This document shows, in pieces, positions 3,402-31,400 of a stretch of DNA of 64,000 nucleotides. The notes under the pieces are model-generated. The model was not told the origin of the DNA. It did not search any database and saw nothing but the letters and a program-made list of their open reading frames with translations. The position numbers and the translations under genes were made by a program. This stretch comes from Amphiura filiformis. Taxonomy: Eukaryota; Echinodermata; Ophiuroidea; Amphilepidida; Amphiuridae. How positions within the stretch are numbered: position 1 is the stretch's first letter; each line of letters opens with the position of its first letter. Location: positions 37,284,965-37,348,964 of the forward strand of contig NC_092628.1 in NCBI RefSeq assembly GCF_039555335.1, in the 5' to 3' direction.

Positions 3402-5570
<2,169 letters not shown>

Positions 5571-6090: not shown

Positions 6091-6762
6091 AATTAAAAAG
6101 AGTAGTTTGCATCTGACGTCAGGGCAACAGCGCGGTGTAATTGGTTGCTGACCCACCAGTACGGCTTTTTTGGTGTGGTTGGCAGGACGTCAGACAGAAA
6201 CTAGTATTTTCAATTTGGTCTTCAATTATACATGTATGCCATCATGTTGTATGTACTTAGACATGGCTGTTACTACTACATGTACAGTCTCCCTTTACTC
6301 AGGTGTAGGCCTATGAACAGTTGCATACCAGCATAATAGTGTTGGGAAGGTATGAAACAAGATGAGGGTTGAAAGCCAAAAAGCCTTAACTCACAATCAG
6401 GGACAGACTTAGGTTTCAGTTTTCTACTGGGGCCAGTGAAATGGCAAATCTAGTAGCCCTGCAATAAATTTACTGGCCCAACTTTTTCAATATGTTCTAC
6501 TGCACAAAAAAAAGAAAGAAAAAAATACCTTTTTTGGTGCTTTGGGGGAAAATCTATATAAATTTTTACTAATTTGTCATAAAATGTGTATATCGTGAAT
6601 TTCAAAAAATTGTATATCAGAAGGACAATCTTTGTTTTCAAAATGTGGAAACCTTGCTATCCGATCCCTTTAAGTCAAGCAAACCTTAACATTTTAATTT
6701 GTTTTGTACTAACACATGTACAAGTTGAGTCAGTAGTCCTGCCATTTTTAAAGGTTCAAATT

Positions 6763-6975
6763 AGTCCCAAACAAAAATGTTTGGTAGACTCATAACCGGT
6801 GCGATCTTACCTTTCCGATGTTGATTAAGATACTTCTTGCATCGATCCCGAGATGCGGAAAAAACCAATAGTCATTTTGTCCCACATAAATGAATAAATA
6901 ACAAAACCCCGATCCCCGGTGGACTCACCCAAAAGGTGACGTCACACCATATGATCGCCCTTATCCGACTTGGGA
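6763..6975. repeat. DIRS left inverted terminal repeat
   Basis: The segment with GATCTTACC, CCGATGTTGATTAAGATAC, ATCCCGAGATGCGG and CCCCGATCCCCGGTGGACTC is matched in reverse complement at the far right end of the element. Its outermost part (CCCAAACAAAAATGTTTGG) is present only at this end and in the internal complementary region. Confidence 0.85.
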
Positions 6976-7017
6976 TCCCCTACTCGGACCAAACTTGTAG
7001 GGGGTGGCGGGTCGGGA

Positions 7018-7139
7018 TAATCAACATCGGAAAGGTAAGATCGCACGGTTATGAGTCTACCAAACATTTTTGTTTGGGACTAGACTCAGTACACGGTCGA
7101 TCTTACCGTTTCGATGTTGATTAAGATACTTCTTGCATC
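7018..7139. repeat. DIRS internal complementary region (circle-junction template)
   Basis: The first half (7018-7080) is the reverse complement of the extreme left end of the element. The second half (from 7081, TAGACTCAGTACAC) is the reverse complement of the extreme right end. The two halves meet at GGGAC/TAGACTC, so this segment spells the joined termini, as in DIRS-1. Confidence 0.8.
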
Positions 7140-7409
7140 AACATCTGAAAGATCGATCTAGCAAGTAACCGACGGATGGAGGTACAAGATTGGTCAGCAT
7201 CAGATCAGGGATCGGGAGCGGGTAACGATGGTTTTCGCGAGGTCAGAAAATATTTTCCCCCAACGGTCGGGAAACAAAAAAAAGACCACGCGATCACAGA
7301 CATAAACCTCCTTACTTAATAAGTTTGGTGGTTAAGAATAGCGACACTGGTTCTTACCATGCTGAGTATTCTGTATAGTCTGAAAACCTGGTACCCGTAC
7401 ACCACCGTA

Positions 7410-7823
7410 TTATGATCGCCGAACAATGTCCCGGTAAACCTCCCGCCCGTCTCTGATTACTAACGTAAGCGGAAGTATCGAGAGAAGGCGAAGGTGGCTT
7501 CCGGGACACCGCCTACTAGATCTCCTCAAGGGACAACCGAACGGTATACCCAAGATGATGAGATAGCTCGTTAATCGAGTGGGTCGTGGGACGCGAAACC
7601 TTCGCGATCCCCGGACCCCACCAACACCTGGACCAGCCATTGCGACAGCGGCTGGACCGAAAGGCTCTGTAAGGGTGATGAATGCGGTCGTGAGTCCCTC
7701 GCAAGGCTTGTGTTCGGAAGAAATAGTGCTGCAGCGCCTTGTCGGACACCCCAGCCTATCTTTGGCTTCAGCCGAACCTTGCCCAACCCTGGGGATTGGA
7801 GAGGGACGAATGTCGGTATGCAC
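7410..7823 (-). pseudogene. DIRS tyrosine recombinase, C-terminal remnant
   Basis: Broken minus-strand frames carry fragments such as 'RLSLEEI' followed after an in-frame stop by 'AVSRKPPSPSLDTSAYVSNQ', resembling the end of DIRS-type recombinases (usually GVSLEDI, then W.S..TF..YYL). The conserved Trp position reads Arg. At least two frame changes and one stop are visible, so it is inactive. The assignment rests mainly on position after the RNase H and recombinase N-terminus. Confidence 0.55.
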
Positions 7824-8221
7824 CGCGCCCGTTCGTAGTCACGAGAACAGAGCGCCGAAACAGTGTCGCTCCAGTGTTTGTGAACACGGAAGCTAACCTC
7901 GAGACCGTGTGCAACTCAGCACCGCCGTCCCGAAGCCAACGCCAAACCGGAAAGCCATCTTGAGAGTTACGTATTTAAGCGTCGCTTTTGACGGAAGGTC
8001 AAAAGGGTGACCCTTAAAGTAATCTAAGACTGTGTTGGGATCCCTTAGGAGGATCACTTTCCTTTTGGTAGACACTTTCGTTGAACATACCGTCGGCGTA
8101 GACTAATAAGGTAACCATCGGCTATGATAGTCGACCGTCTCGAAACCTCGGTGAATGGAGAGGACAGCTGACTTATAGCTGGCCCCAGTGGCCCGCTGAA
8201 GTCTTGCTTGGAACTTTTCTG

Positions 8222-8749
8222 TCAGAAACTCCGAACTAGCAGCACAGAGGCTCTAGCGGGAGAGCTATTTGTCTCATTGCACCAAGCGTAGTATGGAGCC
8301 AGACTCTGGCTATACGTGCGGAGGGTAGACTTCCGTCTAGCCCGGCGATGAGAAAAACAGCTTCTGATGAAAAGTATCCCTCCGCTGCGTGTTCCTGGTA
8401 AGGGCCATGCAGCTAACTGCAGGTGCTCTAGTGATAGACTGGGTACCTCCGCTCCGGGCATCCGGAGTAGATCTGGTACCTCGGGGAGTGCCAGCGGCCT
8501 TGCCGCTAGCAGAATGACAATGCAGTCTTCCCACCCGATCTTGGCCACCACCCTCATGAGTAGTGAGATCGGAGGGACTGCATAAGCTGTCATCCCTCCC
8601 CAGTCTATGGACAGAGCGTCCACGGTGAATGCTTGGGGGTCCGTGACCCTTGAGCAGTACACTGGCAGTGGATGATTGCGATGAGATGCGACCAGATCTT
8701 TCGAGGGTGGTACATCCCTTGAAGATCGCCTGAGCGACCTCGCGAACAA
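8222..8749 (-). pseudogene. DIRS RNase H C-terminus and recombinase N-terminus
   Basis: The frame contains 'FTVDALSIDWGGMTAYAVPP', close to the 'AVDALS.DW....AYAFPP' signature found after the RNase H core of DIRS polyproteins. It then has 'LQLAAWPL' and 'KSTLRTYSQSLAPYYAWCNE', which match the SAM-like N-terminal domain of DIRS tyrosine recombinases. It is open for 175 codons and ends at a stop before the catalytic domain. Confidence 0.75.
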
Positions 8750-8981
8750 GGGACCATTCTGCTGGTCCCGACACCCTTCCTCGTGACAGATTGTGCGCGA
8801 GGATGCTGGTGACGCCCGCGATGTGTATCGCTCTCATCGTAATCTGCCTGAACTTGCACCACCCTATCCGGTGTCGTGCATGCAGGCTCAATCGTGGTGG
8901 CCCGGAGTCCCCTTGTCTGTTGGGGTAGGCTACCACGGTTGTGTTATCCGTCAGGACAACGGTATGTGATTCCACGATCAC
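8337..8981 (-). pseudogene. DIRS RNase H domain remnant
   Basis: The first ~100 residues include 'VVLTDNTTVVAYPNRQGD' (the TDN and N.QGG motifs of DIRS RNase H) and 'AIHIAGVTSILAHNLSRG' (the H.PG..N..AD.LSR motif, with the Asp read as Asn). The remainder is out of frame with the overlapping frame that continues the protein, so a frameshift lies near 8650-8690. Confidence 0.75.
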
Positions 8982-9362
8982 CTCCTCGTGCGAGGGAGGT
9001 TGATGTGAAACTCTGTCTCTATGGCCCCATAGGCCCGAGACGGAGTCTCCGTGGATGTGGACCCCCAGCCCGTTTTGGCGCTATGGTCGTCACTACGTGA
9101 CATACCGGGGGGGCAGGAAACCTGACACCCTGGGTCAAATTGGGCTGATGGGTCCACCACCAGAGTTCCTCTCGCGCGATCTCCGACAACGGAACCGCGC
9201 GGGATATTGGGTGACGACTGGGCCTGCAAGCAGGCTAGAAGGCGTAGTTGGGTAAGCCTAACGTAGAAAGCGGCAGTACAGTACGAGGTCTACCATACTG
9301 GCCATTAGGCCTACCACCTTCATCCATGCCACAGCGGGTTTTGCCCGAGACTCGGCCAAGAG

Positions 9363-10163
9363 TCAGGCACACCGCACCATGTTCGCCACCCGCTCGGGTG
9401 AGAGCACCGCGAACCCCTCCGTGAGGGTGATCTGGGCCCCTACAAATAGTGGTGACTGCGTCGGGACCACGCTGGACTTTTTGAGCTGATCAAAAAAAAA
9501 TCCAGGGTCCGCACCCTCACGGACTATCAACCCCATGAGACCCGTAGTCTTCAGTGGAGTGCGTCCGTGATATGAGCCAAACGTCCAGGTAGCAACTGAT
9601 GTTGACACCCTGTGCTTCAGGTGCGCTGCCACCGCTCTGACCAAGAGTGTTAAACACCCTGGGAGAGATGGACAGGCGGGTGGCGGTATCAAAACTGGTA
9701 ATTTTGATCCTGTACCTAGAAGCGCAGATGCCTCCGATCTTGAGAGGCGATTGGCATATGCAGATAGGCGTCCGAGAGATCTAGCGATGCTGTTCCCATG
9801 CCCCTGATGGAGCAGGCTAGCACCGGCGAGAGTCCCCATTCTGAACCTCTTGGGCCTGAAGAACGTGTTCAACAGTCTGCGGTTCCGGATGGGGCTCCCG
9901 TCGCCGGTCTTCCTTGGAGCCAATGGCTCCAAGATCACCCGTAGAACGGGGGGTAGACCGGGACAATCGCCCGCTTCGTGAGAAGCTGTGTGATCCCTGT
10001 CAGTAGTGCCCGACGCTGGGGGCCGTCTGACGGCACTACTGTGGACCTCTGAAATGTGCAGATGAATGTGGGGAGACTGGGTTGCCAGTCCGTAACCCCC
10101 ACTCACCACTGACCATACCCAGGCGCTCAAAGAGATGGTTTCCCACCTCTGGGTGAAAGCCAT
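9363..10163 (-). pseudogene. DIRS reverse transcriptase remnant
   Basis: This frame holds 'LNTFFRPKRFRMGTL' (the conserved LN.F....RFRMETL block) and near its end 'SPLFVGAQITLTEGFA'. The central RT block 'DLSDAYLHMPIA' lies in another frame at about 9741-9790. The catalytic box reads YLDVWLI (about 9572-9592) instead of YLDDW, losing one catalytic Asp. At least two frameshifts separate the blocks, so the enzyme is dead. Confidence 0.82.
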
Positions 10164-11447
10164 AAGCGGTCGCCCACTGGGAGATCCCCTGTGGAAAAAC
10201 CGCTGAGTCCCCAGGAATGCTCTGCCTAGCTTCCCTTGGAAGAGCGCTTGCTCTTCTTCGGGCTTGCCAGCTGTTCCTGTGCTACCCTTGCGCCTCCCAG
10301 AAATGGGTGCTGCAGAGGTAGTGGGCTCGGGTACTGTTGGTGGTGCACGGCCTGCTGAAGTCGGAGCTCCTACCCATGGTAAGGGCAGTTTCCGACCTCT
10401 TCAGAGTGCTCCGTTGGTAGCTTCTTTGCACGGTCCTCCACCGTGGCGCAGAAGCATCCAAAGAGAAAAGGACCCTGCCTTTCCATCGCGTTGAGCGATT
10501 GGAGTGGCAGGCCCCTCCCCCCGGCGCTGAGTGGACACCCTATGGGCTAGGCCCATGGAGCTCTCGTTGAGGCTAGCTGTTAGCACCGCTAATAGGCTCA
10601 CCTCGCGGGAGAGCTCAGATGTTGTCTGAGCGTGATACGCTTGACGACATCTGGGTCCCTCTCGGATCCCCTCAGGTAGGTCCCGTGGTCCTCCCGCGTT
10701 ACACGCAGAGGAAGCGTGCAAGCACGCGGCGTCATAGCTCTACTGAGCTCGACAGCCATACGATATCTACCCGTGAGGTTTGCGGGAATGAGAGTGTAGG
10801 CGTCCCCTGTGAGGAAGCAGCAGCTGAGCATCCTCTGAAAAGGATCCCTGGTCCTCCTCCATGGACTCCCCTTAGGGGTGTCCGGAGGAAGATCAGTGCT
10901 GTTGCTCCTTCAAGGGAGCAGCGGGGAAGGAGACTGTAGTGATGTCACTACCGGACTCAGCTTCCGACTCCTTTCCCTCGCCCACAGTATCCGTATCATG
11001 CTCCGATGATGACGGTAACTGAGGACGGGCATCTGAAAGCGGGTAAGAAGGCATAACCACTGTGTGGCTCGCCGACTACCTGCCAGCAGAAGAGGGAGTA
11101 CTCCCATAAGACCCTGAGGTATCCGCCATGGCACCACTGGGTCCGCCTGCTCTCGCAGCCGTCGTCCCTAGCGCTTAGCAGCACGGGCCTACCCTGATCA
11201 AGATCTGGGTTAGCCCCATGCCGGCTGGCCTGGTCACCAGCTGATGTTGGTACTGCGTGGCCATCGCTAGGCGACACTTGCCACGGTGCTAGGCCGTGGA
11301 AGAAACACCCTGCGGCGGGTACCACGGGCATACCCGCCGGCAGCTGACCCTGAAAGGATCCGCCACCAGGGTAACCCCATGGTACTGCAGTACCAGCACC
11401 GCCTCCCCTTGTTGCCACAGAGACTGTGGCGACTAAAGCGGTGCTGC

Positions 11448-11665
11448 GGTACCGGTGCGGTATCAGCGTGGGTACCGTGAGGGTTCCCAACTGTGGACCG
11501 CTGTACCCTCGCCACACTGCGTTCCCTGTTTTGGGGGATCAAGCTGTGTGCTGGCGTGGTACCGGCGCGGTATTAGCGTAGGTGCCCGTGAGGGCTCCCG
11601 GCTGTGTACCACTGTACCCATGCCTCACTGCGTTCCCCGCAAGGGGATCAAGCCGTGTGTATGGG
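11448..11665. repeat. Two-copy 110-bp tandem repeat in the DIRS leader
   Basis: GGTACCGGTGCGGTAT and, 110 bp later, GGTACCGGCGCGGTAT start two similar units. Each goes on with a 'GTGAGGG.TCCC..CTGTG' core and ends with a 'GATCAAGC.GTGTG' block. Confidence 0.7.
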
Positions 11666-12398
11666 TACCCCTTCTATACCGCTGTCCCTTGGCTAGAGGG
11701 AGCTTGCCTAGTACCACGGGTAGCTGAGCGTGCATACCCCGATCAATCACCTCGCCACCTGAATAGGCAGCGTCAATCAATGGAGCTATGCCCTGTTGAT
11801 TTGACAGTGATCGATCAAGAGAGGGTAATTGACCCATTGACGGTAATGGATCACCCACGCTCCGCTGGCTCTCGAGGACATAAGTGGGTTGTTGATCAGC
11901 TAGGCTGTTCAAGCTACTTACTGTACCCTCTAGAGCTTCGCCCAAGGTCGCTGTGTGTGGCGGACCACTCACGGCAGCTATGGGCGGGTGCATAGCGGCT
12001 ACCACTGAAGTCAAGCCGTAGCTCGTCTTTGTAGCTGCCACCGAATGCACGTGGGTCGCTGTCCCGTGAGAGACTGCGAGCCCAACCCCTGAATAATCGC
12101 CAGCCAGTCCCTGTGGACAGCCAGCAGCTATTCTAGGGCCCAGGGTATCACTCGGCGGTCCCGCCATGGAACGCTGCCGTGTGACAACCCCAGTTGGTTC
12201 TGCTAAGACTACACCCACAGCGTTAGCAGCGTATCGTCTCTGCTGAACCCATGCATGCTAGGGTTCAACCCAGGCAAGCCCGGGGTACCCTTGCATGCTG
12301 CCCGTCGCTGGCTACTACTGTGGCTGTTTGAGCCTGTAGATATGCCTGCAACAGACGGGTGTCCTCCTGCTAAAACCCCGTGAGGATTTTCGCTAGAG

Positions 12399-12846
12399 GA
12401 CTGGTATCCTCCTGCTACAAACCCGCTAGGGTTTTCGCTGGTGGTTACCGCTCTGCTGCCTGCTACTTTGCTCCGGCGTATAGTCAGTGCTTTCGCTGGC
12501 TGCTGAGCCTTTGGACGCGCTTAGCAGTCCCGAAGGAACCGCCTGCTTGTCCGGGGACCGGAGCCCCTTAAGCAGACCTGCCATGACCCATAGGGGCTGT
12601 CACAGCAGAATCTACCGTGTCGACTGGTATCCTCCTGCTGCAAAGCCCGCTAGGGTTTTCGCTGGTGGTTACCGCTCTGCTGCCTGCTACTTTGCTCCGA
12701 CGTATAGTCAGTGCTTTCGCTGGCTGCTGAGCCTTTGGACGCTTAGCAGTCCCGAAGGAACCGCCTGCTTGTCCGGGGACCGGAGCCCCTTAAGCAGACC
12801 TGCCATGACCCATAGGGGCTGTCACCGCAGAATCCACCGTATCGAC
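12399..12846. repeat. ~223-bp tandem duplication in the DIRS element
   Basis: GACTGGTATCCTCCTGCT begins both copies (12399 and 12622). They are nearly identical through a TAGTCAGTGCTTTCGCTGG segment and a GACCCATAGGGGCTGTCAC block. A third partial copy of about 43 bp precedes them at 12358. The near identity suggests a duplication younger than the other damage to the element. Confidence 0.8.
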
Positions 12847-13634
12847 CTTACCAGTGCCCTTGGTAGATTTCTTCTTCGTCTTATGGCGATGACGGAGCCT
12901 ATCCAAATCGTCAAGCTGGAACTCGGAGAGTCCTAAGCAAAAGAAAGACATCTAGAAGATCGTGAGCACTCCCTGTGGGTGAAACAGAGCGGGTGTGGGT
13001 CCCGCTCCGACACCAGGGAAGGGCAAGCCCGACAGGGCCGAGGCGAAGCGAGGAGAAAAGGGAGGGGGGGCACTACCCCCCCCCCCCCAACACGCGACTC
13101 AAGCCCAGTAAGCAAACCTGAGCACGGAGGCTGGTCGCTAACGTTAGTGGTAAAGTAAGGACTGGCTAACTTTATTACTAAAATGTCAGACGGGTCCCTA
13201 CCAATCCCCACCGTATGAATATCTGATTAACTCGTCTTTATTGGACGGTAATGAAGACATAACGATAGAGTAATCACCCTAACATAGCAACAATAACCTA
13301 CCGTACATGAAATACAATGTGTATGTACAAACATCTATTGTAACTTACAGGCTGCAATGGTTGTTTTACGTGGGAAACAAAATGAATGGCGTCAACGAGC
13401 GGCCATTTTGAATTGCTCGTGTGTCACGTATACAAACGGAGGCACGATATGTAGCTAAGTTTTGGATCGTTTTTTGTCACTTTTTCGCCAGAAAATGCCG
13501 TCAAAACTATCCTCAGCCGAACAATACCGGTTTGGTTTTACCTAAGGTGTGAAACTACAACCGTATATCTCGCTTTGGTCGAGAAATTGATACACAGTGC
13601 TATGAACAATCGATAGGCACGTCTGTGTCAGTCG

Positions 13635-13826
13635 GAGACCAAGGAGGATAAGGCGATCATATGGTGTGGCGTCACCTTTTGGGTGAGTCCACCGGGGATC
13701 GGGGTTTTTGTTATTTATTCATTTATGTGGGACAAAATGACTATTGGTTTTTCCGCATCTCGGGATCGATGCAAGAAGTATCTTAATCAACATCGGAAGC
13801 GGTAAGATCGACCGGTGTACTGAGTC
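13635..13826. repeat. DIRS right inverted terminal repeat
   Basis: Reverse complement of the left terminal repeat, with the shared GAGTCCACCGGGGATCGGGG and CTTAATCAACATCGG blocks. Its outermost part (GGTGTACTGAGTC) is unique to this end and reappears in the internal complementary region. Confidence 0.85.
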
Positions 13827-14784
13827 ATGTGGTTTTTTTTGTGGTATCGCTATCATCATCAGATACAAATGTATGAGCACGAAAGAGATTGGAAGTAGTA
13901 CATACGCAGGCCTACTATTGACGTAAAGAGCGGCCGTATCATGTTTCCAACTTGCTAGCAACGCAAAAATATGAATATACAATGTACGAAAAATCATTAA
14001 ATAATGATATAAATGTCCATCACTGATTATGTGTCTTAAATGTGTTACATGTATATCAGGCTCAAAAATCTAGTGGCCCGCCAGGCCAGCATTGTTGGAA
14101 GTTTACTGGCCCGATGCAAAATCCACTGGCGCGGGGCCACCGCTTAAATCTGTCCCTGCTCACAATCACTTGCTCCTACAAAATGAGCATTAAGTTGCCA
14201 GGACACTATAGAAGATACAGTCCATTAAGGTGGTTCTACACCCCCTGACAATTTTGTGACTAATTTTGCATTTTTCTCAAAAAATAACTACATTTTGTAC
14301 ACACTGGTAACAAAAGTTATGTATATTATAGGGGCAAGGATTTCATTAAATATGTTTTAAGAAATGAGGTACATTCTAGCGGTACATGTACCTCTATATC
14401 TCTTCTTATCATAAATAACATAACGCTTGTATTGAGTCACTGAAATTCCAGTGTAGTAACTGCAGGGGAGACTAGGGGGAACTGGGGGCCACTCAGACTT
14501 GTTTGCCGGGAGGGTGGATCGGGTGACCAGATCAGTCATGCCTGATGGACCCTGCTGATGGGGTCCTCTGATGTGTAAGATGACGTGTTGTAGTGAGTGA
14601 AAGGTCACTTGGTTTTGTCAAGCAAAGGTCGAAAATGTTTATTTTGAAAAACATTATACGAAATATAAAAATGAAAAAAAAAAGTTTAATAGTCATTGTC
14701 TCGAAGAGTGTATCATGTGGTGATACAAGTGGGTCATGGATTTATTTATATAAAAAATATGTTGATACCATGTTACCTTCAGAT

Positions 14785-14967
14785 CAGGGGTAGCGCTAGG
14801 TTTTCAAACAAGGGGTCAAAATTTTCAATTTTGTGAAGCTATGGATCCAAAACAATAGAAATAAAGGGTGAAAATGACCCTTTAGCAACCTCAAAATGGT
14901 AATTTTGTGCGCCAAAAGTTAAAAAAATGCGCCTATGACCCCATGGCGCAAGTTAGCGCTACCTCTG
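14785..14967. mobile_element. 183-bp hAT-like MITE with perfect 8-bp duplication
   Basis: CAGGGGTAGCGCTAGG at the left mirrors TTAGCGCTACCTCTG at the right. Both ends are flanked by the identical octamer CTTCAGAT (14777-14784 and 14968-14975). It is too short to code; it is a deletion derivative or MITE. Confidence 0.85.
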
Positions 14968-14975
14968 CTTCAGAT

Positions 14976-15700
14976 ACAACCGTATAGCCAAATTTTAGGC
15001 AAGAAACGATTACCGGGTAACACATTCACAGTGAATGGAAAATTGTGCGCCAATATTATCCCATTTTAAATAAAAAAGATTTTTGAAAACTTCAGTGCAT
15101 GGTCTTATAGCAAAACAAAAAAAATGGGATCTTGTTGGAGCATATGTTATTAAATGTTATTTTTAAAAAACATTTGATGAAAAGCACCCTTATGCCACTT
15201 GCGAGTTCTTGGTCCTGGTTCCAAAGCTGACAGTGAAGTTCTTAAACTCAGGTCTTTAATGGTGCTGTTCCATTTGCAATACACACCCCGATTAAAATTG
15301 ACATCGCCTCCCCTCCCCTTAAGCATGGCTCGATTTAGAGGGGCTTTACATATATGTGTAACATGGGTTCTGTGCATGTAAAATTCTGCCTGTGCATGCA
15401 AAATTGACTGTTATTTAGACTGAACCTGAACCAGAAGCAAGTCATTTTTTACTTCAGAATGAAACAACAACACCTTATTTTGTATTGGGAACATCAGTTC
15501 ACATACCGTATATGAGTCAAAATATGCTAAGGTGTTATAAAAGTGAACACAGGGGTCAATTTCTAAACTTGGTTATTTTTCTCTGCAACTAACTTCATAT
15601 GATAGTGTACATAATTAGCTACAATGATATAGAAAGCAAAATATAAGTTGTTGTACATGAACTTCAGATTTTATTTTTTTCGGTTTGGAACTTCAACCTT
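14976..15700. other. AT-rich intergenic stretch, nothing recognised
   Basis: Only short unsupported reading frames on both strands; no splice-linked coding or inverted repeat was recognised. Confidence 0.45.
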
Positions 15701-16534
15701 GCGTACGTCAGATTTGACAGACAAAATATTTCAATTTTTGTGGCATAAATAATAAATTTATCATCAGGAGGTACTCTTTTGCACTTATTTTAATGTAACA
15801 AATATAGTTCTTATGAATAAATGTCAAAAAACAATCCAAATAAATAAATAAATAGTTCTAAATGTCTTTGAAAATTGGTTTGTGGTTCATACGACTTACA
15901 AAAAAGGTAAGGTACAACTACAATTAACCTCATTACAGCCACTGGATATCAAAGAATATTTGTAAATTTTTGAAAAAGGTTAAGTATAACATGTTTGCAG
16001 AGTTTAAATGAAGTTTAAAGATAGAACATAGTAAATAAGAGGATTAATTCAGATGTGCTTGACGTACGTCAGTTTGACGGACACACATGTGCGTACGTCA
16101 GATTTGACGGACACACATGTGCGTACGTCAGATTTGACAGACAAAATATTTCAATTTTTGTGGCATAAATAATAAATTTATCATCAGGAGGTACTCTTTT
16201 GCACTTATTTTAATGTAACAAATATAGTTCTTATGAATAAATGTCAAAAAACAATCCAAATAAATAAACAAATAGTTCTAAATGTCTTTGAAAATTGGTT
16301 TGTGGTTCATACGACTACAAAAAGGTAAGGTACAACTACAATTAACCTCATTACAGCCACTGGATATCAAAGAATATTTGTAAATTTTTGAAAAAGGTTA
16401 AGTATAACATGTTTGCAGAGGTTAAATGAAGTTTAAAGATAGAACATAGTAAATAAGAGGATTAATTCAGATGTGCTTGACGTGCGTCAGTTTGACGGAC
16501 ACACATGTGCGTCGTCGTCAGTTTTGACGGACAC
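15701..16534. repeat. 420-bp tandem duplication with GTCAGATTTGACAG motifs
   Basis: Two copies begin GCGTACGTCAGATTTGACAG at 15701 and 16121 and are almost identical to the end. The junction holds extra short copies of 'GCGTACGTCAGATTTGACGG ACACACATGT', so a 28-bp unit is nested at the boundary. Related GTCAGA/TTTGACAG motifs recur at 22740-22800 and 23200-23590. Confidence 0.85.
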
Positions 16535-17311
16535 TTGCACAATTTAATATCACAAAACCTGGCCAATATTAGAAAAGACATTGAATTTTAAAAAAGTGCA
16601 GGTGTGCTACAAATCCCTTGCTTAAAAGGAGCTGTATATAGTGTGATTTGGCAGATTTACTTGAATTTTCTAGCCTAGATCTGCAATTTACAGTGGGCAA
16701 TAAATCTGTCCTCCTGATTCTATATGTGATCGCACTCCTCCAAACTCAATCCCTTTTCAATGACCAGCTTACAATAAGTGTATTTGCCTTTAAATTCGAG
16801 TATTACATGTAGATGTACATTGCATGGTAAATTTCACAAGTTTGTTATTACATAATAAGAATTCTTAACATATAAGAATTAAGAATTCATGCTTTCCATA
16901 GTCAATTTTTTCAGAACCTATCGTGCCATAGATTGCTGACTGGACATGTACATGTAGGTAAGTTATATCATCCAAGTTGCTCCATTTTGCAAACAATACA
17001 GCCAGCTACTTTAACACCAATCTAGAATCACCATGAAAATGTGGTTCAAGTTGTTCCAATAATAATAATGGAATTTGTACAATAACATTGTTTGGTTTTA
17101 ACTTTTTTTTTTCTTCTTTTTCTTACACAGATAAGTCAACTGTAAAACAAAGAAGACACTCGCTGGTCACAACAATATGAGTGCATTCATCAGTCATAAG
17201 AACAAATAACTTATTTACACATCTATGTGCTATAGTTAGCAAGTCAAATTTACCCAACCATTTAGGTGTATACAACTAAGCACTATGTTAAGCCGTGCAT
17301 GGCAGTGTAAT
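16535..17311. other. AT-rich stretch downstream of the transposase-like gene
   Basis: Lies 3' of the Tudor-like terminal exon on the minus strand and may include its 3' UTR. No other gene or repeat was recognised. Confidence 0.4.
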
Positions 17312-17567
17312 TTAAAGTTCTGCTGCAAACTTGAACTGTCCTCTGTTGCTGATTGGGAATGGGGCAGAAAGAGTTCTTACAACCTTGTGTGATTCATACC
17401 AAAGAAGATCTGCGGGATCTGGCCACTTCCAGAACTTGCCAGCTTTCTCTAGGCAATCGATTTCTGTTTCATCTCCTACAATTTGTTTGACTATCCCAGG
17501 ATAATACATTCCCTTATATTCGGCTAACACCCAGTCACCAATTCTCCACTGCTTATCTTCATAATCT
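17312..17567 (-). CDS. Tudor-like terminal exon of the transposase-like gene
   Basis: Acceptor TTTTTCAG precedes 'ATTATGAAGATAAGC'. The exon encodes 'DKQWRIGDWVLAEYKGMYYP', 'DETEIDCLEKAGKFWKWP' and ends 'NRGQFKFAAEL' then TAA. Glu/Gly-rich beta strands with GDWV and a WKWP motif resemble the small Tudor/SH3-like barrel that closes this protein family. It is intact here and is the only undamaged domain of the gene. A possible small upstream exon (about 17899-17992, 'SDESEPDLDASLTNQ') has an in-frame stop at its start. Confidence 0.65.
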
Positions 17568-18091
17568 GAAAAATGCATGAAAAATAATTGTAATATAATG
17601 TACAATATAATATTATTCTTATACTTGTAGAGAAAATATATATTTTAAGTGTACATTGATATGAAATAAATGCATGTGTAGTAGTACTTGTCATAAATAT
17701 GTCAATCTAAGATTACTGAAGACAAATCTTACCTCAGCATCTACTTAAGAAAATGTTTCATGCATCTTTGAACTTTGTAATCTAAAGTTATATAATAAGC
17801 ATATATTTCATAAAGGTTCCTCAAACAGACTTGTCATAAGTAGATACTCATTATATCACAATATGAACCAACTTTTAATCACAGGGTGTACAAATTTACC
17901 TGTCTTGTGATTCTGCACTTGATTAGTGAGAGATGCATCCAGGTCTGGCTCAGATTCATCCGATTAAATCACGTTCACCTGAAATAGAGCAAACATTAAA
18001 TGCCAAATAATGTTACTTTTAAGCAGGGAGGGTTGATAGCATACTGTAAGAAAGAAATATACTGCAATTGTGATTAAAAGTAACATTAAGT

Positions 18092-18491
18092 TAAGCACAG
18101 GGAAAATCTGCGATTTCTGAGAGTAAAATCGCGCGCCAGTTTCTGAAAATGTGCTATTTTATGTAATTTGCACATTTTTAACAAAATGCTAATTTTTCTC
18201 CCCAAAAGTTCAAATACATGCAATATTAAAATTTTTATTCTTTTTTCCTTCTATATTTTTATGAATTTTTTTGCGGCCTATTTTCTATACTTTAAATAGC
18301 ATGGATTGTGTTGCAGGTCATTGTGGATTCTTTGATTTTTGTAAAAACTTCAGGTTTTTGCAAAGTTAGTACTTGAAAAATGGTTATTTTGGTAAAATCT
18401 TAAAATTTGTGGTCGGACCCAAAATGCGCGATTATACCCAAAATGCGCAAATTCCTGCGTTTTTTGTGCATCACACATTTTCCCTGTCCTT
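18092..18491. mobile_element. Mutator-like MITE, copy 1 (9-bp duplication)
   Basis: The ends read AAGCACAGGGAAAAT and, reverse complemented, AAGGACAGGGAAAAT. The 9-bp sequence ACATTAAGT occurs on both sides (18083-18091 and 18492-18500), a length typical of Mutator-like elements. A second copy of the same ~400-bp sequence lies at 37616-38020 in the same orientation. It sits between exons of the transposase-like gene. Confidence 0.7.
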
Positions 18492-18639
18492 ACATTAAGT
18501 CTTTGCATTTATACGCATTACACGTTTTTGTAGGTCATGATGTTATCAGCAATTTTGTATTAACAAGTTTCCACTTTGTAAATAATAAATTCAACATGTA
18601 CTGTTAATGACATTGAAAATAAAAACATTTCTGACATAC

Positions 18640-18946
18640 CTTGCAACTGTCTGAACAAGTCTTCAATACTTTCTTCACCAGGGGAAGGCTCATCTGCACC
18701 AGGGGAAGGCTCATCTGCACCAGGGGAAGGCTTATCTGCACCAGGGAAGGCTCATCTGCATCAGGGGAGGCTCATCTGCACCAGGGAAAGCTCTTCTGCA
18801 GTGTCATTTGGGGAAGGTTCTTCTGATGGTTGGTTTTCATGAGAAGTGGGTATTTCACGATCCATCTTCAATACTTGTCTCTGCCACGGGTTAACGTAAG
18901 TTGCATTGGCACAGTTGGTTGGGGGGACTTGAAATGCACCCTTCAC
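18640..18946 (-). pseudogene. Transposase-like gene, linker exon ending at a splice donor
   Basis: After 'CANATYVNPWQRQ' comes an acidic, Pro-rich linker built from a 20-21 bp repeat ('ADEPSPG' units). It ends 'ESIEDLFRQLQ' just before a consensus donor GTATGT. The mix of 20- and 21-nt copies breaks the frame. Confidence 0.55.
18679..18800. repeat. 20-21 bp minisatellite (about six copies)
   Basis: Units of CAGGGGAAGGCTCATCTGCAC occur three times at 21 bp and then as 20-bp variants. On the minus strand the 21-bp form encodes the 7-residue repeat ADEPSPG. Confidence 0.85.
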
Positions 18947-19907
18947 AGAAGCACCCCAGTAAACGAGTTTTTATCACACCTGGCGACACACACTTGATGG
19001 CATGAAAGGCACGGGTTCCTGCTACTGGCTTCTTAACTTCTCGTTTTCTTTCTCTTTGGATTTCATTTCTTCTGACGAAGAAGAACGTACGGCGTTGTCC
19101 CTTGCAACTTTCTCTTGACAGTTCTTCTTTACAGTAGGTGTACATTTCTTCTGCTGTATTAATCACAGCTCTTCTCGAAACAACGGCTCTCCTGACTGCA
19201 CTTTTTACCACCCCTGAAACCCCATCGCTAGGCCCCTTTCCATGCCTTGATCCGAAATATAGTCTTTCAAAGTCGTCGACCCCATAATCCTCTGTGGCAT
19301 AGCTTATGTCACCAAATGGGCCTCGGGATTTATATTGACAGCCGCAGCCGTCCGTGTACTCAACTATGTGTTCCAAAGGAAGTCCCCTACTTTCCTTGAG
19401 GTGCTTTACAGCGACCTCTTCGAAATGATGCACTGCATGGAAATCGTGCCCTAAATCTTCGCTTATGAAAACCATCGCCTCTTGGACTATGTGGGACTGA
19501 GTTGCATCAGAGTGCACACAATTATAATAGCCAACGATAGGGTGAACAGTCACTTGTTGAGTCGCCCAATGTGCAGACTGTATTTCATCTTGAGATAGGC
19601 ATCCATAATTTTCTGCAAAATCCAGTACCAGCAAGGCCCAGTTCTGTGGGAGCTTTGTACTAATTTCTGTAAACATGTCCTGCTGCCAGTTAGCAACAAA
19701 TACATGCTTGGCTAGAGTTTCGGTTTCATTCAATAGTTCTTCCACCAGCTCGGATATGGTCTTTCTCTGTGTGATCAGAACTTTTTTTGCTTTTGTTTTC
19801 CCATTGTGTTCATAAGTTTGAAGTGCCCACTTTCGCCACTGTACCATAGAGTCACCATGAGCTGCTATCAGTGGTGTAAATCGGTTCACGCAGCTTTTCA
19901 GTTCCAC
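18891..19907 (-). pseudogene. Transposase-like catalytic core block
   Basis: An uninterrupted frame of about 338 codons. Candidate RNase H-fold acidic positions are 'LVLDFAENYG' (about residue 93), 'YTDGCGCQYKSR' (about residue 184) and a third in or after 'GKGPSDGVSG'. The motif 'SAHWATQQVTVHP' between the first two is typical of the family. Its end reads 'LLGCFCEGC', after which the conserved 'CANATYVNPW' segment is one frame away, past a run of six C. Confidence 0.72.
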
Positions 19908-20463
19908 ATTCTGGGCAACTCCTGTTTATGCAGTCAGGTTTTGCATAGTTGTCACCGTCGTTCTTTGGGCACATTGATAGACCAATTAGCTCATACTTAT
20001 TTTTGACTTTTATGTCTGGCATCTCATACACCTGAGCAGCCCTGTTCAATGACTCCAATTTAAGCAGAATATCAGTACAGTACTCACAGAGACATTGATT
20101 AAGTTTATTTCTGTGTTGAAGGAGGACATTTTCAGGTCTCAGCTTTTGAAACAACGAGCGACTAACAACGGTAACATGATCTGGGTGTTCTTCCTTCCAC
20201 ATTGTGTATGCCTGATCAATAGAGACTTCCATAACCCTTCTCTGTGTCTGCTGTTTCACTGTTCTCATGTACGGCAATTCCCTCGATACCTTCGGTAATC
20301 TGTAAAATGACTGTATTTCGTTAATCACCTCCATGCTTGTAGCATCGCTTCGTCTTTTCCGTGACTTTGACATCATATCCTCATCAAGTGATTTTGAAAG
20401 CTCCGACAGGTAATTGGGCGCACATCCAATTGTTTGGCTAAGTGACTTTGCATACGGTATTTC
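19852..20463 (-). pseudogene. Transposase-like gene, Cys-rich linker block
   Basis: Encodes 'FYRLPKVSRELPYMRTVKQQ', then 'YTMWKEEHPDHVTVVSRSLF', 'LRPENVLL', 'QCLCEYC' and 'CPECGTEKL'. The paired cysteines suggest a zinc-binding site. The conserved reading passes into the next frame (+1) just after CPECGTE, inside the overlap with the core block. Confidence 0.7.
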
Positions 20464-20886
20464 TTACTTATTAGATTTGCTCTCACCAGTAGTCGCTCTC
20501 TTTAAGGGAAGCGGAATCTTTCTTTTCTTCAGTTCTTGGACTCTCCTTTTTACACTGTCTGTCATGCACTTTCCTAACTGTAGGGTTCTTTTTGCACTTA
20601 ATACACCAATACCACGTCTTTGCAATGCAGCTTGTTTCCTCGGTGTTGTGTGCTTTCCTGACACAAAGTCTTCTACTATGGACGCAAATTTTTCTGGATC
20701 GTTTATTGGAAATCGTTCCCACAATCTCTTGAATGCCATCCGTTGTGCAGACTTGGATATGAAACCACTAGATGTCCGGGGAGGAGTGCTATTGACTGGA
20801 CATTGCTTTCCTTGGTTTTCCTTTCGCTTTTCACTTCTCCTTTTTGCATCTATTTCCCTTGCTCGCCTCTTCTGTTGTGGGTTCAT
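20464..20886 (-). pseudogene. Transposase-like gene, second block
   Basis: Begins 'MNPQQKRRAREIDAKRR', continues with 'MAFKRLWERFPINDPEKFAS', and ends at TAA at 20464. The next block (19852-20376) is in the same frame, so a single stop separates them. Part of the sequence after the stop also reads well one frame over ('KKYRMQSHLAKQL'), so a pair of compensating indels is possible. Confidence 0.6.
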
Positions 20887-21063
20887 CCTAGCTCATGCGT
20901 TCTTGTTGTTTAATCCGATTATATTCAGTTTTCTTTTTTTTTTTCTGTGCGAGTAAGTACTTTTGACTTTTTTCCTTGTGTTGTACATTTTCCTTTGGCA
21001 GATTCTACAGCTCCTTCAGAGAGTCGTTTTCATAGCGTTGTTGTCGAATCACGGCCTGTTTCT

Positions 21064-21333
21064 CTATCTCGTTCTCTTTGCTTTTCTGTTCTTTTGGCTC
21101 GTCTGCTCACGTTGACGTGCAGCTTCCGATGCTAAAAACTTTTTCCTTGCTTCAGGATCTTGCTTTAATTTTTCTCGCCTATTTCTAGCCCAACGTGCAG
21201 AAGATGTAGAAGGTGTATGTGCAGAAGATGTAGAAGGTGTATCTTCATCATTTTCAGGCGAATCATTCTCACGCTCCGCAACATCACACGGTTTTTTACG
21301 ATTGAAACTCCTCATCCGAATACTCAACACCAT
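21064..21333 (-). pseudogene. Transposase-like gene, N-terminal basic block
   Basis: Starts ATGGTGTTGAG at 21333 and encodes an acidic/Ser-rich lead ('TPSTSSAHTPSTSSAR', an imperfect duplication) followed by 'WARNRREKLKQDPEARKKF', typical of the basic start of this family. The link to the next block is unresolved and needs a short intron or frameshift between 20890 and 21064. Confidence 0.55.
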
Positions 21334-21540
21334 CTTGACAACACTAGCCTATATTAAAAAAGGGGAAAAAAGGTAAGTGTTAGAACACAGGGCGATTCTT
21401 TAACCCACATTACCACAAGTGTCACTGCTTTCTTTTAAAATGTCAAAAACAAATGCAAAATGATGTGATTGGACGCCCCTGTGTCTACTTTTATTGTATT
21501 TTTTTACCCACTTCCCAAGCAATATAAAATAAACCTCGGC

Positions 21541-22430
21541 CATGTGAACATCCCCACCAGAGGCTCAGTTTTTTATTATGGAGCCCAGACTACCCACCAC
21601 TAAGACCACTTTACTAAGACCTATCAGAACCATTCATGTGAACACCCCGCTGGAGGATCCGTTTTTGAGTTATGGAGCCGGACTACCCACCACTGAGACC
21701 ACCTTACCAAGACCTATCAGAACCATTCATGTGAACACCCCGGTAGGTTGACCTACAAAAATGTTTGTGTTTTTAATATGCATAGTGATAATTTGTGTTC
21801 ATGCCATACTATGAACACAAATTATCACTTTGCATATTAAAAACACAAACATTTTTGTAGGTCAACCATGAATGATCCTAGCATTTAGTACTAGGTCCAG
21901 GGACACTCCAAAACCGAAAAAAATTTAAAAAAAAAAAAAAAATTTTTTTTTTTTTTTTTTTTATTTATTTTTTTTTTAAATCCGGAAATTCCAGAGCACA
22001 TAAAAAAATCCGGAAATCCGGATAAATCCGGAAGTGTGACATCTCTGCAAGCCCTATCAGAACCATTCGTGTGAACACCCCGCCGGAGGCTCCGTTTCGA
22101 GTTATGGAGCCCGACTACCACCGAGACCACTTTTCCGAGACCTATCAGAACCATTCATGTGAACCCCAGGCTGGAGGCTCCATTTTTGAGTTATGGAGCC
22201 TGGACTACCCACCACTAAGACCACCTTACCAAGACCTATCAGAACCATTCATGTGAACACCCCTGCCGGAGGCTCCGTTTCGAGTTATGGAGCCCGACTA
22301 CCACCGAGACCACTTTTCCGAGACCTATCAGAACCATTCATGTGAACCCCGCCGGAGGCTCCATTTTGAGTTATGGAGCCCGGACTACCCACCACTGAGA
22401 CCACCTTACGCAGACCCCCCCCCCCCCAGG
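21541..22430. repeat. ~90-bp satellite array (about seven units)
   Basis: Units share GACCTATCAGAACCATTC, ATGTGAACACCCCGCCGG, AGGCTCCGTTT, GAGTTATGGAGCC and a 'CTACCCACCACTGAGACCAC' block. The array is split at 21740-22050 by a hairpin and a poly-A/poly-T tract with repeated AATCCGGAA motifs. No coding frame matches the period. Confidence 0.8.
21746..21867. repeat. Near-perfect 57-bp hairpin inside the satellite
   Basis: GGTTGACCTACAAAAATGTT and on through TAATTTGTGTTCAT are mirrored after an 8-bp loop by ATGAACACAAATTATCACTT and on to TTTTTGTAGGTCAACC. Only one or two mismatches are seen, so it is a young palindromic MITE or an extruding hairpin. Confidence 0.88.
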
Positions 22431-25342
22431 CTCCGTTTTGGAGCTTAATAATTCAAGACTCAAACAAATTATGCACACAACCCCCCCAAAAAAAAAAACC
22501 TAAGCAGCCCGATTAATTTCAAAAGAAGTCCTCATTATTTTTGTTTATGGCAGAAGTGGCTTTATACGATAAGGCTATAAGCACAATTGGGCTACTAAAT
22601 CAGGAGTTTGGCAACCCTGTTGAAGCGAGTGAGCCAATGATCAACAAAGCCTGGTGCACCACTAGACTTGAGGTAGCGCAAAAAAAAGAAGATTGGAAAA
22701 ACTGTCCTTGGCTGGCTTGGCTTGGGTGCCGGCGCACGTGGCACGTCTGTCAACAATCTGACGAACGTGCAGCACATCTGTCAACAATCTGACGAACGTA
22801 CACGGAATAAGCTTTAATTTTGTTTACACCAGTTTAATCACAAATGCGTTCGTTAAAGCACATCGTGTATATTGGGGTTCTAAATCTAGCATCTTGGTGG
22901 AGAAACGACAACAATATCTTTAGCGAGGTAGCAAATATCAAAGTTTAAAAATAAAATGGCTGTCAAACCCTGACGCACGCCCAGAAAGTCTGTAAAAATC
23001 TAACGTACGCATGCAACGTGTCCGTACAAAAGCATTGGTGCGAGTATAAACACAAACATCCTCGAGGCAAAGCCCCGAGGCAGTGCGTAAATCGTGGTTT
23101 AAATTACTCTAATTTACACATGGACTGGCTCAGTTTTGTCTATATATACCGATTTATCAGTTGTAATATATTTTCAAGGAAATTTATACTCACGTACGTC
23201 AGAATAGTCGGTCGTCAGGTTTGTTGACAGACGTCACTATGCAACTTGTCATGCCGCCATTGCTTGTAATTTTGCCAAGAGCTGATGACGTTCAACATCC
23301 GGGCACCTATTACATCATGTGACGTTGTATTATAAAGGCTGGTCTGGCTTTGAGCAAGAAATATGGTCGTATCTTAAGTACGTCAGATTTTGACAGATAG
23401 AAGGAAGAAGTTTTTAAAACCATGATAAAATCAAAACAAATTGTAGCCTAAGAAAAAAATGAATATAGTTCAAGACAAAATGCATTTCGTTATAGGTTGA
23501 CCATTGTGGTTTTCATGGTAGACACTGTTTAGTGAAGTTACGATCGTTTGTAACTGAACCACGAGTTTGACAGACATACCTGACGTACGTAAGGGTGAAT
23601 TTCAATTTGTTTTATTTATAACATTAATCTTACTTAGGACCACGATATTTACATTTTTGTAAATTATTTTTATGTACTTTTGACCCACCTATCATGTAGT
23701 TCTATTGGGAATCACAATAAAACAGTATGAGCTGTTGGGAAAGAGACGTCACTGCATGTTCAAAAATCAATGATGAAAAACGTGGAATTCAGAAAACTTT
23801 TTTTTTTTTTTCAAATTTTTAATGAAAAGATCGACTCAAAACTGTGTGTGTTGTGTCTTTATTAGTTATTTTTGCCTCTGAACTTACAAATAAATCAATT
23901 CCTTACTCATAACATTAAGAAAAAAAGAAATGAAATAAGCATATTTCTTTGGTTGTAAAATAACGCCTTAGCATATTTTGACTCATATATGTAACGTGTA
24001 CATGGCCATATACGGTACGATACTTAATGATCTAATCTTTACAGTCAAAAATTGCTCCCCCCCCCCCCCGCCGGAACAAGGCGGTATTAAAGGTAGCACA
24101 TTCTCCACATGTACTCGCTGGAATTAAGAGGGATTATAATATCCTAGTCGATACTTCAATTGATCAATAATCGTCTATGCCTGCTGCACGGTCAGTGTCA
24201 GAGCATCGAGATGGTCAGAGCATGTGACTAAGAAAGTCAGTCAGAAAGAAAAGATTTGGAATAACAAAAATATTGGAACTATTTTGTGATCATAAATCAG
24301 ACGAAATTCTTGCTAAATTAAAGGTTTAAAATCATAAATATGATGATGATCGATAGGCCTATAAAAATAAAAGAAACTATAAAAAGTTGATTCATAGGCC
24401 TGTAATATACAATTCAGAACATACATGAGCATATTAAAATACTACTTGGTAAATTCGAAAAAATCAAGTGACAAGTAGGCCTATTAGTATTATTAAAATA
24501 ATAAATCAATTATTTTATATCAGGGCTATGCATGTGTGAACTTGCACTTGCAGCAAGACGGCAACTGTTTACTATGTATTGCGTCAATCGATTATAGAGT
24601 GATCAAGTCGAGAGTCATCCAGCGAGAACAGTGGGAGAATGTGCTTCCTTTACCGCCTTGTTTTTGTGTCCCCCCAATGTCCGATGACCTGCCAAATATT
24701 GCTTGCCCTCCCACCCCCTGGTCCTTGGCCAGCCAAAAAATCTTTACCCCCATTTTACCCTCCCCCAGGCAGGCTCATAATTATTGCACACGACAATCAC
24801 AGTGATGATACTGAATCAGCATTTTTATGTGTACTACCGGTATTGACACACTGTCATGACTGTCACAGTCTGACACACACACAGACAGACAGAGTTAATT
24901 ACAGTTACACACAATGGAATGAGCAAGTTCACACGCAACATCAACAACCTTTTATGCCAAATTATTTATATTGAATTTGAATATGAATGAACTTACACCA
25001 TCTGTATCCCATGACCACGTTTACATGTCAGCAGTAGAGAAAAAATTCGATCGCCATCTGCTTGCTTGCCAATACTGCATTGTGTTGAGTTGAAGCTGAG
25101 CTGCTGCTGTATGTGTCATGTATGGAATGGATTTTTGGGTGACAATCTACGTGGCTAGCTAGTCTTCACCGCTTTCTTGTTTTCACTATGGGCATTGTTC
25201 ACTTGCGTCTTTACGAATGCGATAAGTCTAGTTTTTGCAATTGACTGGCAACTCTGTCCTAAGGCTGTCGATAGCATGAATGCACACGAGCTGTTAATAA
25301 ATCAATTAATTAACTATTTTGCATGTCTGATGTTGACTGTTG
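22431..25342. other. Intergenic stretch upstream of GTF2H4
   Basis: Contains a C run (22418-22429), a 34-bp direct duplication (CTGTCAACAATCTGACGAAC at about 22747 and 22776), scattered TACGTCAGA/TTTGACAG motifs, a poly-C tract near 24057 and a CA/GACA-rich patch near 24850-24895. The GTF2H4 promoter and 5' UTR must lie near its right end, but I see no clear TATA box. Confidence 0.4.
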
Positions 25343-28400: not shown

Positions 28401-31400
28401 AAGCAATCCCGCTGTTGAGGTTATTAAAGCGCTCTATCGGGCGATACTGCTTTATACGGTGAGATCTAGTACAAGGAACTTATAATACGGACAACATACA
28501 TGTATATACATGTAAGACCGTTTATAGGTATACTAGGTGAATTCAAATTTGCCATCAAATTGCATCGTTTTATATATCAAATTAAAGCCCTTGAGTAAAC
28601 TAAGCCAAAACTGAAAACCTTTTTTTCATAGCACTTTCCGTAGCAAAGTTACATCTTGTCAAAGATTGACTTTCATCAAAAAAGATTCAGCTAGCAAAAT
28701 TCCCCAAAACGGCATTTCGGGGTGTTTCTAGATCTTAGTCTTATGGCGATGGCAGCTTTTTTAATGGAACTGCTATCAAAATCCTCTAAAATTCCATGTG
28801 CGACTTGATTATCACCATAAAAAATCATATATTTGGGTCAAGTGAAGTATAGAAAACATATTTATGTAGGTTTCCTTCACCCACCTATTCTCGAAAAAAT
28901 TCAAATTTCTATGTAAATATGCATTGTGTTGGGGCCCCGGTCTCGGCGAATTCGCTGACTAGTAAATGTGTTAACTAAGGTTTGCCTAGGTTACCTACCG
29001 TTTAATACTGTAAGTAGGGTTGTAAGGGGTGGAAAGTTTCCGGGAATTTTGAAGGGCCCGGGAATATTGGGAATTTGGGGAATTTTCAATTATTGGCTTT
29101 TATTATGTTTTAACTTGTATTTTAATATTTAGGGCCTAATCATTCAGAAAGCAAATTTAATCTTTTCACAACATACATTATATTTGATGTTTACAATCAG
29201 ATAAGTCCTACCAATAAAGAATAGGTCTTGTTTATATGTTCTTTTACCACAGATTTTCAATATTTAAAAAATGACAAAGATTTTTTCATGTGGGATTTTC
29301 CAAGTCCAGCATCTTGCATATTTTCATCCTAAGTAAAATGTTGCATATTTTGGGAATTCCCAATTACCATTATAATAGTTCATTGCTATTTCTTAACCAA
29401 AAATGTATGTACATGTAGTTGGGATTTTTCAATAGCTTTGAGTCACTGAGACAAACATTTCTATCTATTTTGCCTTTAAAATATTGGAGTCATTTTGAAT
29501 GACAATGTAACTTGCCATGTCATATTTATAATTGACTTCTTCAATCAAACCTCTTAAAATTGCCATGAAAATGGAAAATTTTCTTATCATTTTCAGAAAT
29601 CATTTGTTAAATACTTTCACAACACAGGTATAGGCTACCATACTTCTTGAATAATGAATATGAATGCTGTAAATTTTATAATTATGTTTTGGCATCAAAA
29701 CATAATTGGTGAATGGTGATTATGAAAAGTAATTGGTGATTATTTGTATTTAATTTTGAAAAGTCCAACCAAATGCAAAAAAAATGTGCGTATGTAGGCA
29801 TACATCATGGTACATACGTGTATTTTGGTACTGAACAGACAACGTTAACTCCAGGGCATTAACTCATGCAAGATCTTTGTAGTTCACATCTTATGAGCTA
29901 CATGTAGCACCAGCCCTGTATGCATGATTTTTTTTTTTTTGGGGGGGTGCTGATTTTGAAAAAGTGGACCTTTTTTTCAAGGTGGGGAGGGTGAAAATTG
30001 TGATATTTTGGGACTTTTTGTATACCTTTGCAAATTAGGGGGCCGCACCCCCTCTGCATACAGGCCTGTGTAGCACTGAATAAGAATTTTAAATTTAATA
30101 TTCAAGATCACTTAGCTGTTAGCTGGTAACAAAAAGATACTGCTAAAAGTATTCTATTAAAGTCTTTATGTAATAAGTTTAAGATAATGATTATCCCTTC
30201 AGAGTTTTGTGGTTATTGTTTCAAAATTCATACCAGCTAGTGTAAGATGTTTTACAGCACAAAAATATAATGCAGTATAAGATCTGGTCATGCTTGTTGT
30301 TTTTTGATAAAAATGGTTATTGATCATTCTTGAAGTTCTTTATATTGATTGTATGCTCTTATAAATTACTCCAATACCCTAATCTTTACAGTGATAAAAA
30401 AAATGAGTGATTCCCCTATCTAAACTATGATTTTTAGATTTGAATGAAAATTCACGAAAATTCCTGTTAATTCCCAAAATTTCCAGTGGAAATTTTCCAC
30501 TCCGAAAATTCCCGGGAATTTTACAACCCTAACTGTACGGGAAATCATTAAAGGAACAGTCAAGAATAGGATCTGTCACCTGGATCTGGATCTGAAAGAT
30601 TACTGGTCAACGCTCCAAGTGGAGCCAAACAATCAGTTGTTGTGCACAGTTGTTGTTTAATCGAACTTTTGAGTACTTGTGTCTTGAAATTACTTGGTTC
30701 GGTTTAAATTGTGGTTAAATGCGGTAGGGTAAACTTTTCCAGTCGGAAATCGTTTGATGGAAGAAAAAGTGTTTTAAACAGTTCTTGTTTGCAGGTGGAG
30801 TCTGGTTATGCGTTGGTGTGTGAGTAGAAGGAGGTCGTTGACCTGTACACAGCGTCACCATTCCTATATCTTCATGTCATAAATTGCCATGATAGTAACT
30901 ACAATGTAGTTGTTCAACAGCATGACATGGCGATTTTGTTCTCTGTGATTTAATAGTTTCGAGCTAAAAGGCTGAGCACTCCAGGCAAAGTATAACACAC
31001 CCCCAATTTCTTCTGATGAAATTAAGCACCCTGGTTGCTTTTGAGGTACATGTAGCATGCTCTGCCTGTGTGTTCCAGCAAAAATCATGTTGGAAGTGAA
31101 CACCTAAGTACTGGGTGTTATTTGTCTCCTCCAAGTCAACTCCCACATACTGTGTGGATCAGTAGATAGAGTATGGAACGATAACTACTTCATTTCAGTC
31201 ACATGATCATTGCCAACTTTTAAGAATGGGGGTCTGGATCAATTCAGCAATGTGCGGACAAAGCCAAAAATAAAGGTTCATGGAATTTGCCTAAATCTTG
31301 TGATAGGAAAGGTATTTGGGTCTAATGATTTTGTAACTTGATCAAAATTCGAAAATCCCTTGTTGCCATGGTAACGGTTCTTTGAAGATTGCCACAGGGA

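Follow-up and report, generated by a model that had tools for sequence, protein, structure and literature searches.

How did two copies of one octamer, CTCACAAT, come to lie some 7.8 kb apart, each flush against one of a pair of inverted sequence ends? The locus is located on contig NC_092628.1 of the ophiuroid Amphiura filiformis, within a stretch of 64,000 nucleotides that is called the window here and in which all positions are numbered. The original prediction was of a DIRS-like retroelement nested inside a hAT-like element of about 700 bp with an intact 8-bp duplication. The analysis supports this and places the insert as DIRS1-like, and taken as a whole the locus is very probably a DIRS copy nested in a non-autonomous hAT-type element. 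The nest is supported by the 8-bp duplication and the 14-bp inverted ends, with matching subterminal motifs in both arms of the outer element. It is supported also by the ends, the extension and the internal repeats of the insert, which are mutually consistent and fit the published plan of such elements (PMC3266345; this and the other papers are cited from excerpts). Finally, the polymerase remains are independently homologous to a DIRS-type element with open reading frames, and the base composition changes sharply within the nest.

The outer element

The features of the nest are itemized in Table 1. The outer element, with CAGGGACAGA ends, spans 7.76 kb with its insert and about 696 bp (37% GC) without it. 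The joined arms contain no recognisable coding sequence; the longest open stretch is 92 codons, and no hAT transposase is present. The motif NWYTASTRGCCC occurs in five exact copies in the window, two in the left arm, two in the right arm and one at 22589. It was picked after inspection, and so provides support and not a test. A search of the viral contig collection with a subterminal hAT pattern gave no match.

Table 1. Features of the nest, with positions in the window.
Feature	Position	Strand	Basis or remark
Target-site duplication, left copy, CTCACAAT	6390..6397	.	Sequence; fits nTnnnnAn
Target-site duplication, right copy, CTCACAAT	14159..14166	.	Sequence
Outer hAT-like element, left terminal inverted repeat (TIR), CAGGGACAGACTTA	6398..6411	+	13/14 complementary to 14145-14158
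Outer element, right TIR, TAAATCTGTCCCTG	14145..14158		Inverse of CAGGGACAGACTTA, 13/14
Outer element, left arm, 364 bp	6398..6761	+	Subterminal motifs at 6448 and 6468
Outer element, right arm, 332 bp	13827..14158	+	Subterminal motifs at 14068 and 14101; ends in the TIR
DIRS1-like retrotransposon copy, 7065 bp	6762..13826	-	Borders taken from the circle junction as mirrored internally
Right extension (rE), 25 bp, at one end only	6762..6786	-	Definition in PMC3266345
Right inverted terminal repeat (ITR; 3′ end, coding strand)	6787..6973	-	Aligned to 13639-13826
Left ITR (5′ end, coding strand)	13639..13826	-	Aligned to 6787-6973
Internal complementary regions (ICR)	7018..7139	-	Reverse complement of the joined ends, in circle order
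Probable tyrosine recombinase remains, with frameshifts and stops	7396..8400	-	Upper limit coincides with that of the tested stretch
Broken remains of reverse transcriptase (RT), RNase H and the following polymerase region	8228..10195	-	LDLSDAYLHMPI present; YLDD reads YLDV
Presumed gag region, with internal duplications	10196..13226	-	Presumed from position

That identical octamers lie outside inverse outer ends, as predicted, was confirmed in the sequence. A strict scan for identical, non-palindromic octamers flush outside 14-bp inverted ends with at most one mismatch and at most 10 kb apart found four pairs in the window including CTCACAAT, and none in 60 sequences of 64 kb simulated by a second-order Markov model. 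A looser scan, with 9-bp ends and self-complementary octamers permitted, gave eight pairs in the window compared with four pairs in 20 first-order Markov sequences. Six of these eight octamers are self-complementary, and TTTGAGTT (22193-22364) lies within a tandem array; the eighth is CTCACAAT.

The duplication CTCACAAT on both sides is 8 bp in length and fits nTnnnnAn, and the TIR is 14 bp with 13 matching positions. A target of the form nTnnnnAn is a mark of the Ac-type group of hAT elements. It is reported as the target consensus for Hermes (PMC2803484), and hAT elements are described with 8-bp duplications and short TIRs of 5-27 bp (PMC3517528). Judged by its ends and its duplication, the outer element thus fits a non-autonomous hAT type. 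It resembles Mar, a hAT miniature inverted-repeat transposable element (MITE) of 610 bp from Drosophila willistoni, which is likewise short and noncoding with 8-bp duplications and short inverted ends that start with CAG (Mar ends are CAG(G/A)GGTAGGC). The two differ in that the duplication consensus of Mar is nnnTAnnn, of the Buster type, whereas CTCACAAT fits nTnnnnAn (PMC3517528).

The remaining pairs from the strict scan are located elsewhere in the window. At 14785-14967, 0.6 kb from the nest, there is a 183-bp candidate hAT MITE with ends CAGGGGTAGCGCTA and the duplication CTTCAGAT, which fits nTnnnnAn. A short element at 29911-30068 has 14-bp inverted ends CAGCCCTGTATGCA and an 8-bp duplication TGTAGCAC, and the fourth pair (18092-18492) has 14-bp inverted ends TAAGCACAGGGAAA and the duplication CATTAAGT. 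The ends of the first two of these three start with CAG. With three more inverted-end pairs carrying 8-bp duplications in the window, such outer elements are not isolated here. Within the left arm, 91 bp (6556-6646) are 75% like 39760-39861, part of another repeat; this is perhaps a third, older repeat layer inserted in that arm.

The insert is a DIRS1-like retrotransposon

The insert carries ITRs, an ICR near the 3′ end that mirrors both termini, and a terminal extension that is complementary only to the ICR. It is a DIRS1-like retrotransposon. The PAT and Ngaro types, with split direct repeats, were rejected because the repeats of the insert are inverted and accompanied by an ICR. Alignment of the two ITRs gives 180 matches, four mismatches and seven gap events in 191 columns, and 6813-6959 is linked with 13652-13798 by inverted matches in runs of 57, 51 and 51 bp. 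The ICR is made up of two adjoining parts. The first, 7018-7082, matches 6762-6827 in reverse complement (65 of 66 columns, with one gap), and the second, 7083-7139, matches 13768-13826 in the same way (56 of 59 columns, with one mismatch and two gaps). Because the ICR mirrors the circle junction, it fixes both borders of the insert, 6762 and 13826, and hence its length. The insert has a GC content of 55%, compared with 36% outside the nest.

Published DIRS1-like elements also have the ICR at the 3′ end and a divergent ITR zone near the tips (PMC3266345), and part of the ITR differences seen here sits near the tips. In the ITR alignment and the two ICR alignments taken together (6762-7139 and 13639-13826), the repeats differ mostly by insertions and deletions, with 10 gap events and five mismatches. 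Several of these fall in short runs of a single base, for which real decay, slippage and assembly error are candidate causes. No second DIRS copy was found by blastn in the rest of the window.

The closest likenesses by size are to SkoDIRS1 and SkoDIRS2, DIRS1-like elements of Saccoglossus kowalevskii, whose genome is reported to contain 240 DIRS1-like copies. As listed in Table 3 of PMC3266345, both have a right extension only, of 30 and 27 bp compared with 25 here. Their ICRs are of similar size (67-63 and 63-65, compared with 66 and at least 57 here), as are their ITRs (16+202 and 15+142, compared with 187 here). They differ in length, at 6052 and 6283 bp compared with 7065 here, and in having ATT/ATT and GTT/GTT ends where no triplet is visible in the insert, whose coding region, set against theirs, is broken. 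The likeness is one of published sizes and not of sequences, and other elements listed in the same paper have extensions of similar size. DIRS-1 of Dictyostelium discoideum likewise has inverted repeats, a right extension and ICRs; the published DIRS1-2 differs from the insert, with 3793 bp, TTA/TTA ends and an inverted repeat of 316 bp (PMC3266345).

Coding remains of the DIRS copy

An RT motif is read at 9749-9784, and a degenerate pattern written after this had been noticed matched no stretch in the viral contig collection and one in the genome contig collection. This locus, L001, is contig NZ_JASJAV010000047.1 (1-6353), filed under a metagenome-assembled genome (MAG) of Breoghania. Its long frames, of 837, 996 and 794 codons, are open. 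It carries inverted arms of 99 bp as well as an inner inverted pair of 59 bp, and the contig ends inside repeats. The 837-codon frame matches Pfam RVT_1 (4.3e-23) and, under that family's cut-off, RNase_H (9.4e-4); the only Pfam integrase match in L001 is sub-threshold (E 0.28). From its open frames, RVT_1 match and inverted repeats L001 is a DIRS-type element, and its presence in a bacterial MAG is most likely eukaryotic contamination.

The L001 frames were compared with the window by tblastn, with the low-complexity filter and the composition correction off. The polymerase frame matches the minus strand at 10181-8718 and 8707-8300 with a linked E of 9.6e-30. L001 residues 151-837 were also aligned with window 8000-10700 in a way that tolerates frameshifts. 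The match spans 10195-8228, and of its 618 residues 240 are identical; it contains 13 frameshifts and two stops. Its score is 670, compared with 144, 147 and 162 in three shuffles. This homology identifies DIRS-type RT and RNase H in the insert. Thus L001 resembles the insert in its polymerase and in having inverted arms with an inner pair, and differs in that its long frames are open. DIRS1-like elements also have a methyltransferase-like domain in pol. The piece at 8707-8300 aligns with the part of the L001 polymerase that follows RNase H; no Pfam profile in L001 names a methyltransferase.

The recombinase match is weaker than that of the polymerase. In an alignment that likewise tolerates frameshifts, residues 641-996 of the L001 recombinase frame match window 7200-8400 with 107 of 308 identical, 11 frameshifts and three stops, and with a score of 162 compared with 76-115 in eight shuffles. 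The presumed gag region is assigned by its position. No Pfam match was found for the two pieces of it that were tested (10404-10739 and 10601-10909), and tblastn gave no significant match between it and the upstream frame of L001. It contains internal tandem duplications of about 224 bp (12399-12846) and about 111 bp (11448-11659).

Further relatives were sought with pieces of the polymerase. Neither the post-RNase H piece nor the RT piece led to a confirmed locus in the viral contig collection. Window 8340-9080 likewise gave none in the genome contig collection, in a search whose six query peptides left out the conserved DNTTVVAY. A PDB sequence search with the piece 8225-8833 returned no match. 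Because of its many frameshifts and stops, and because YLDD reads YLDV, the DIRS copy as read cannot be active.

The junction with the outer element

Removal of the insert joins the outer element at 6761|13827; the predicted join, 6762 to 13827, differs from this by one base at its left side. A lack of target-site duplication is a trait of DIRS1-like elements. Here the flanks read ...GGTTCAAAT and ATGTGG..., with nothing longer than AT common to both. On the + strand the flanking triplets are AAT on the left and ATG on the right, corresponding to ATT and CAT on the coding strand, so that only the AT is common, flush with both ends. The ICR joins the two DIRS ends with 0 bp between them, and the junction as mirrored there contains neither flanking triplet.

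According to the published model, 3 bp complementary to the circle junction are present at each end, and NTT stands at both the start and the end of 23 of 28 annotated elements (PMC3266345). By our own count of Table 3 of that paper, 10 of the 28 elements have unequal starts and ends and two have a 2-bp junction. The element may therefore end in ATT and CAT, as in those with unequal ends, with 3 bp lost from the ICR of this copy. The junction may instead be the 2-bp AT, as in the two elements listed, with 2 bp lost from the ICR; or the common AT may be chance, and the insertion used no shared triplet. That the family as a whole integrates without a junction triplet, the circle joining end to end and the recombinase accepting a target with at most two bases in common with the junction, would depart from the published model and is quite unlikely. 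The locus had been put forward as an example of DIRS target choice. This is an overstatement, since the expected 3-bp identity is not seen, with only the AT in common, and a single site says little.

Order of events and alternative explanations

The hAT element existed first, because a complete DIRS copy lies within it. We suggest that a non-autonomous hAT-type transposon of about 696 bp integrated by transposition and duplicated 8 bp of host DNA, the footprint of which is preserved. Later a DIRS1-like retrotransposon would have been copied via RNA into a circle, as in the published DIRS model; the junction of this circle is still mirrored in the ICR. The DIRS tyrosine recombinase would then have inserted the circle in the middle of the hAT element, with no duplication beyond the shared AT. 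Afterwards the DIRS copy probably decayed through frameshifts, stops and the loss of an RT active-site residue, and given this decay it is unlikely that either element can still move on its own.

The simplest order is that the 8-bp duplication was made before the DIRS insertion. The nest might otherwise have formed elsewhere, and the 7.76-kb composite been brought to this site by a hAT transposase that used the outer ends, so that the CTCACAAT duplication was made last. Such a move would equally leave the outer ends and the duplication intact, and no feature of the sequence orders the duplication relative to the DIRS insertion. It is nevertheless very unlikely, as it requires an extra step and as hAT members are described as smaller than 4 kb overall (PMC3517528), which would make mobilisation of a 7.8-kb unit less likely. 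Of the dated order that had been proposed, the presence of the hAT element before the entry of the DIRS copy thus stands, whereas the duplication cannot date that entry, since it would look the same after a later move of the composite.

Several results weigh against the nest as described. A blastn search of the rest of the window found neither an uninterrupted copy of the outer element nor a second copy of either arm, and the 3-bp junction triplet of the published model (PMC3266345) is not visible in this copy. In the tblastn comparison neither the L001 recombinase frame (best E 0.41) nor its gag frame (best E 0.29) matched the window significantly. Pfam searches with 10 broken pieces of the insert revealed no RT, RNase H or integrase family, just a sub-threshold zinc-finger match. 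Moreover, because no hAT transposase is encoded, the superfamily label derives from the ends and the duplication. Duplications of 8 bp are made by other superfamilies of DNA transposons too, and with no transposase present the outer element could be a non-autonomous member of one of these. We consider this unlikely, since the nTnnnnAn octamer and the short inverted ends starting with CAG fit the descriptions of hAT elements (PMC2803484 and PMC3517528) and subterminal motifs are present in the outer arms. If instead the outer ends were unrelated repeats, the common octamer would be due to chance. The inverted end is just 14 bp, and the looser scan did give pairs in simulated windows; against this, the scan with 14-bp ends gave none, and four of the five exact copies of the subterminal motif, chosen after inspection as stated above, fall in the two arms. 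Such a coincidence is therefore extremely improbable, and the nesting of a DIRS copy in a hAT-type element is the reading that we retain.

Genomic setting and significance

Two stretches on the minus strand match a triose-phosphate-transporter domain: 3402-4049, with an E of 8.1e-27, and, under the family cut-off, 4968-5570 (E 0.0022). The nest is situated about 0.8 kb upstream of the second, which is the closer one. On the other side, at 15700-22800, a gene that looks transposase-like by eye consists of three adjoining minus-strand frames (18894-20892) between related repeats, of which 16050-16076 and 22754-22780 are 85% complementary. No Pfam family was found above cut-off in 18894-20892.

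None of the papers listed by a literature search for a DIRS element nested in a hAT element contained the term 'DIRS retrotransposon', and those listed for the letters CAGGGACAG looked unrelated by title. The nesting is ordinary, both elements are of known kinds, and no general view is altered. The borders of both layers can be set almost to the base, and with them the empty site, which makes the nest a case of the textbook type. It could be used to check repeat annotation and as a single observation on the sites where DIRS elements land. Should the missing triplet prove typical of this DIRS family, it would matter for the way in which DIRS circles integrate.

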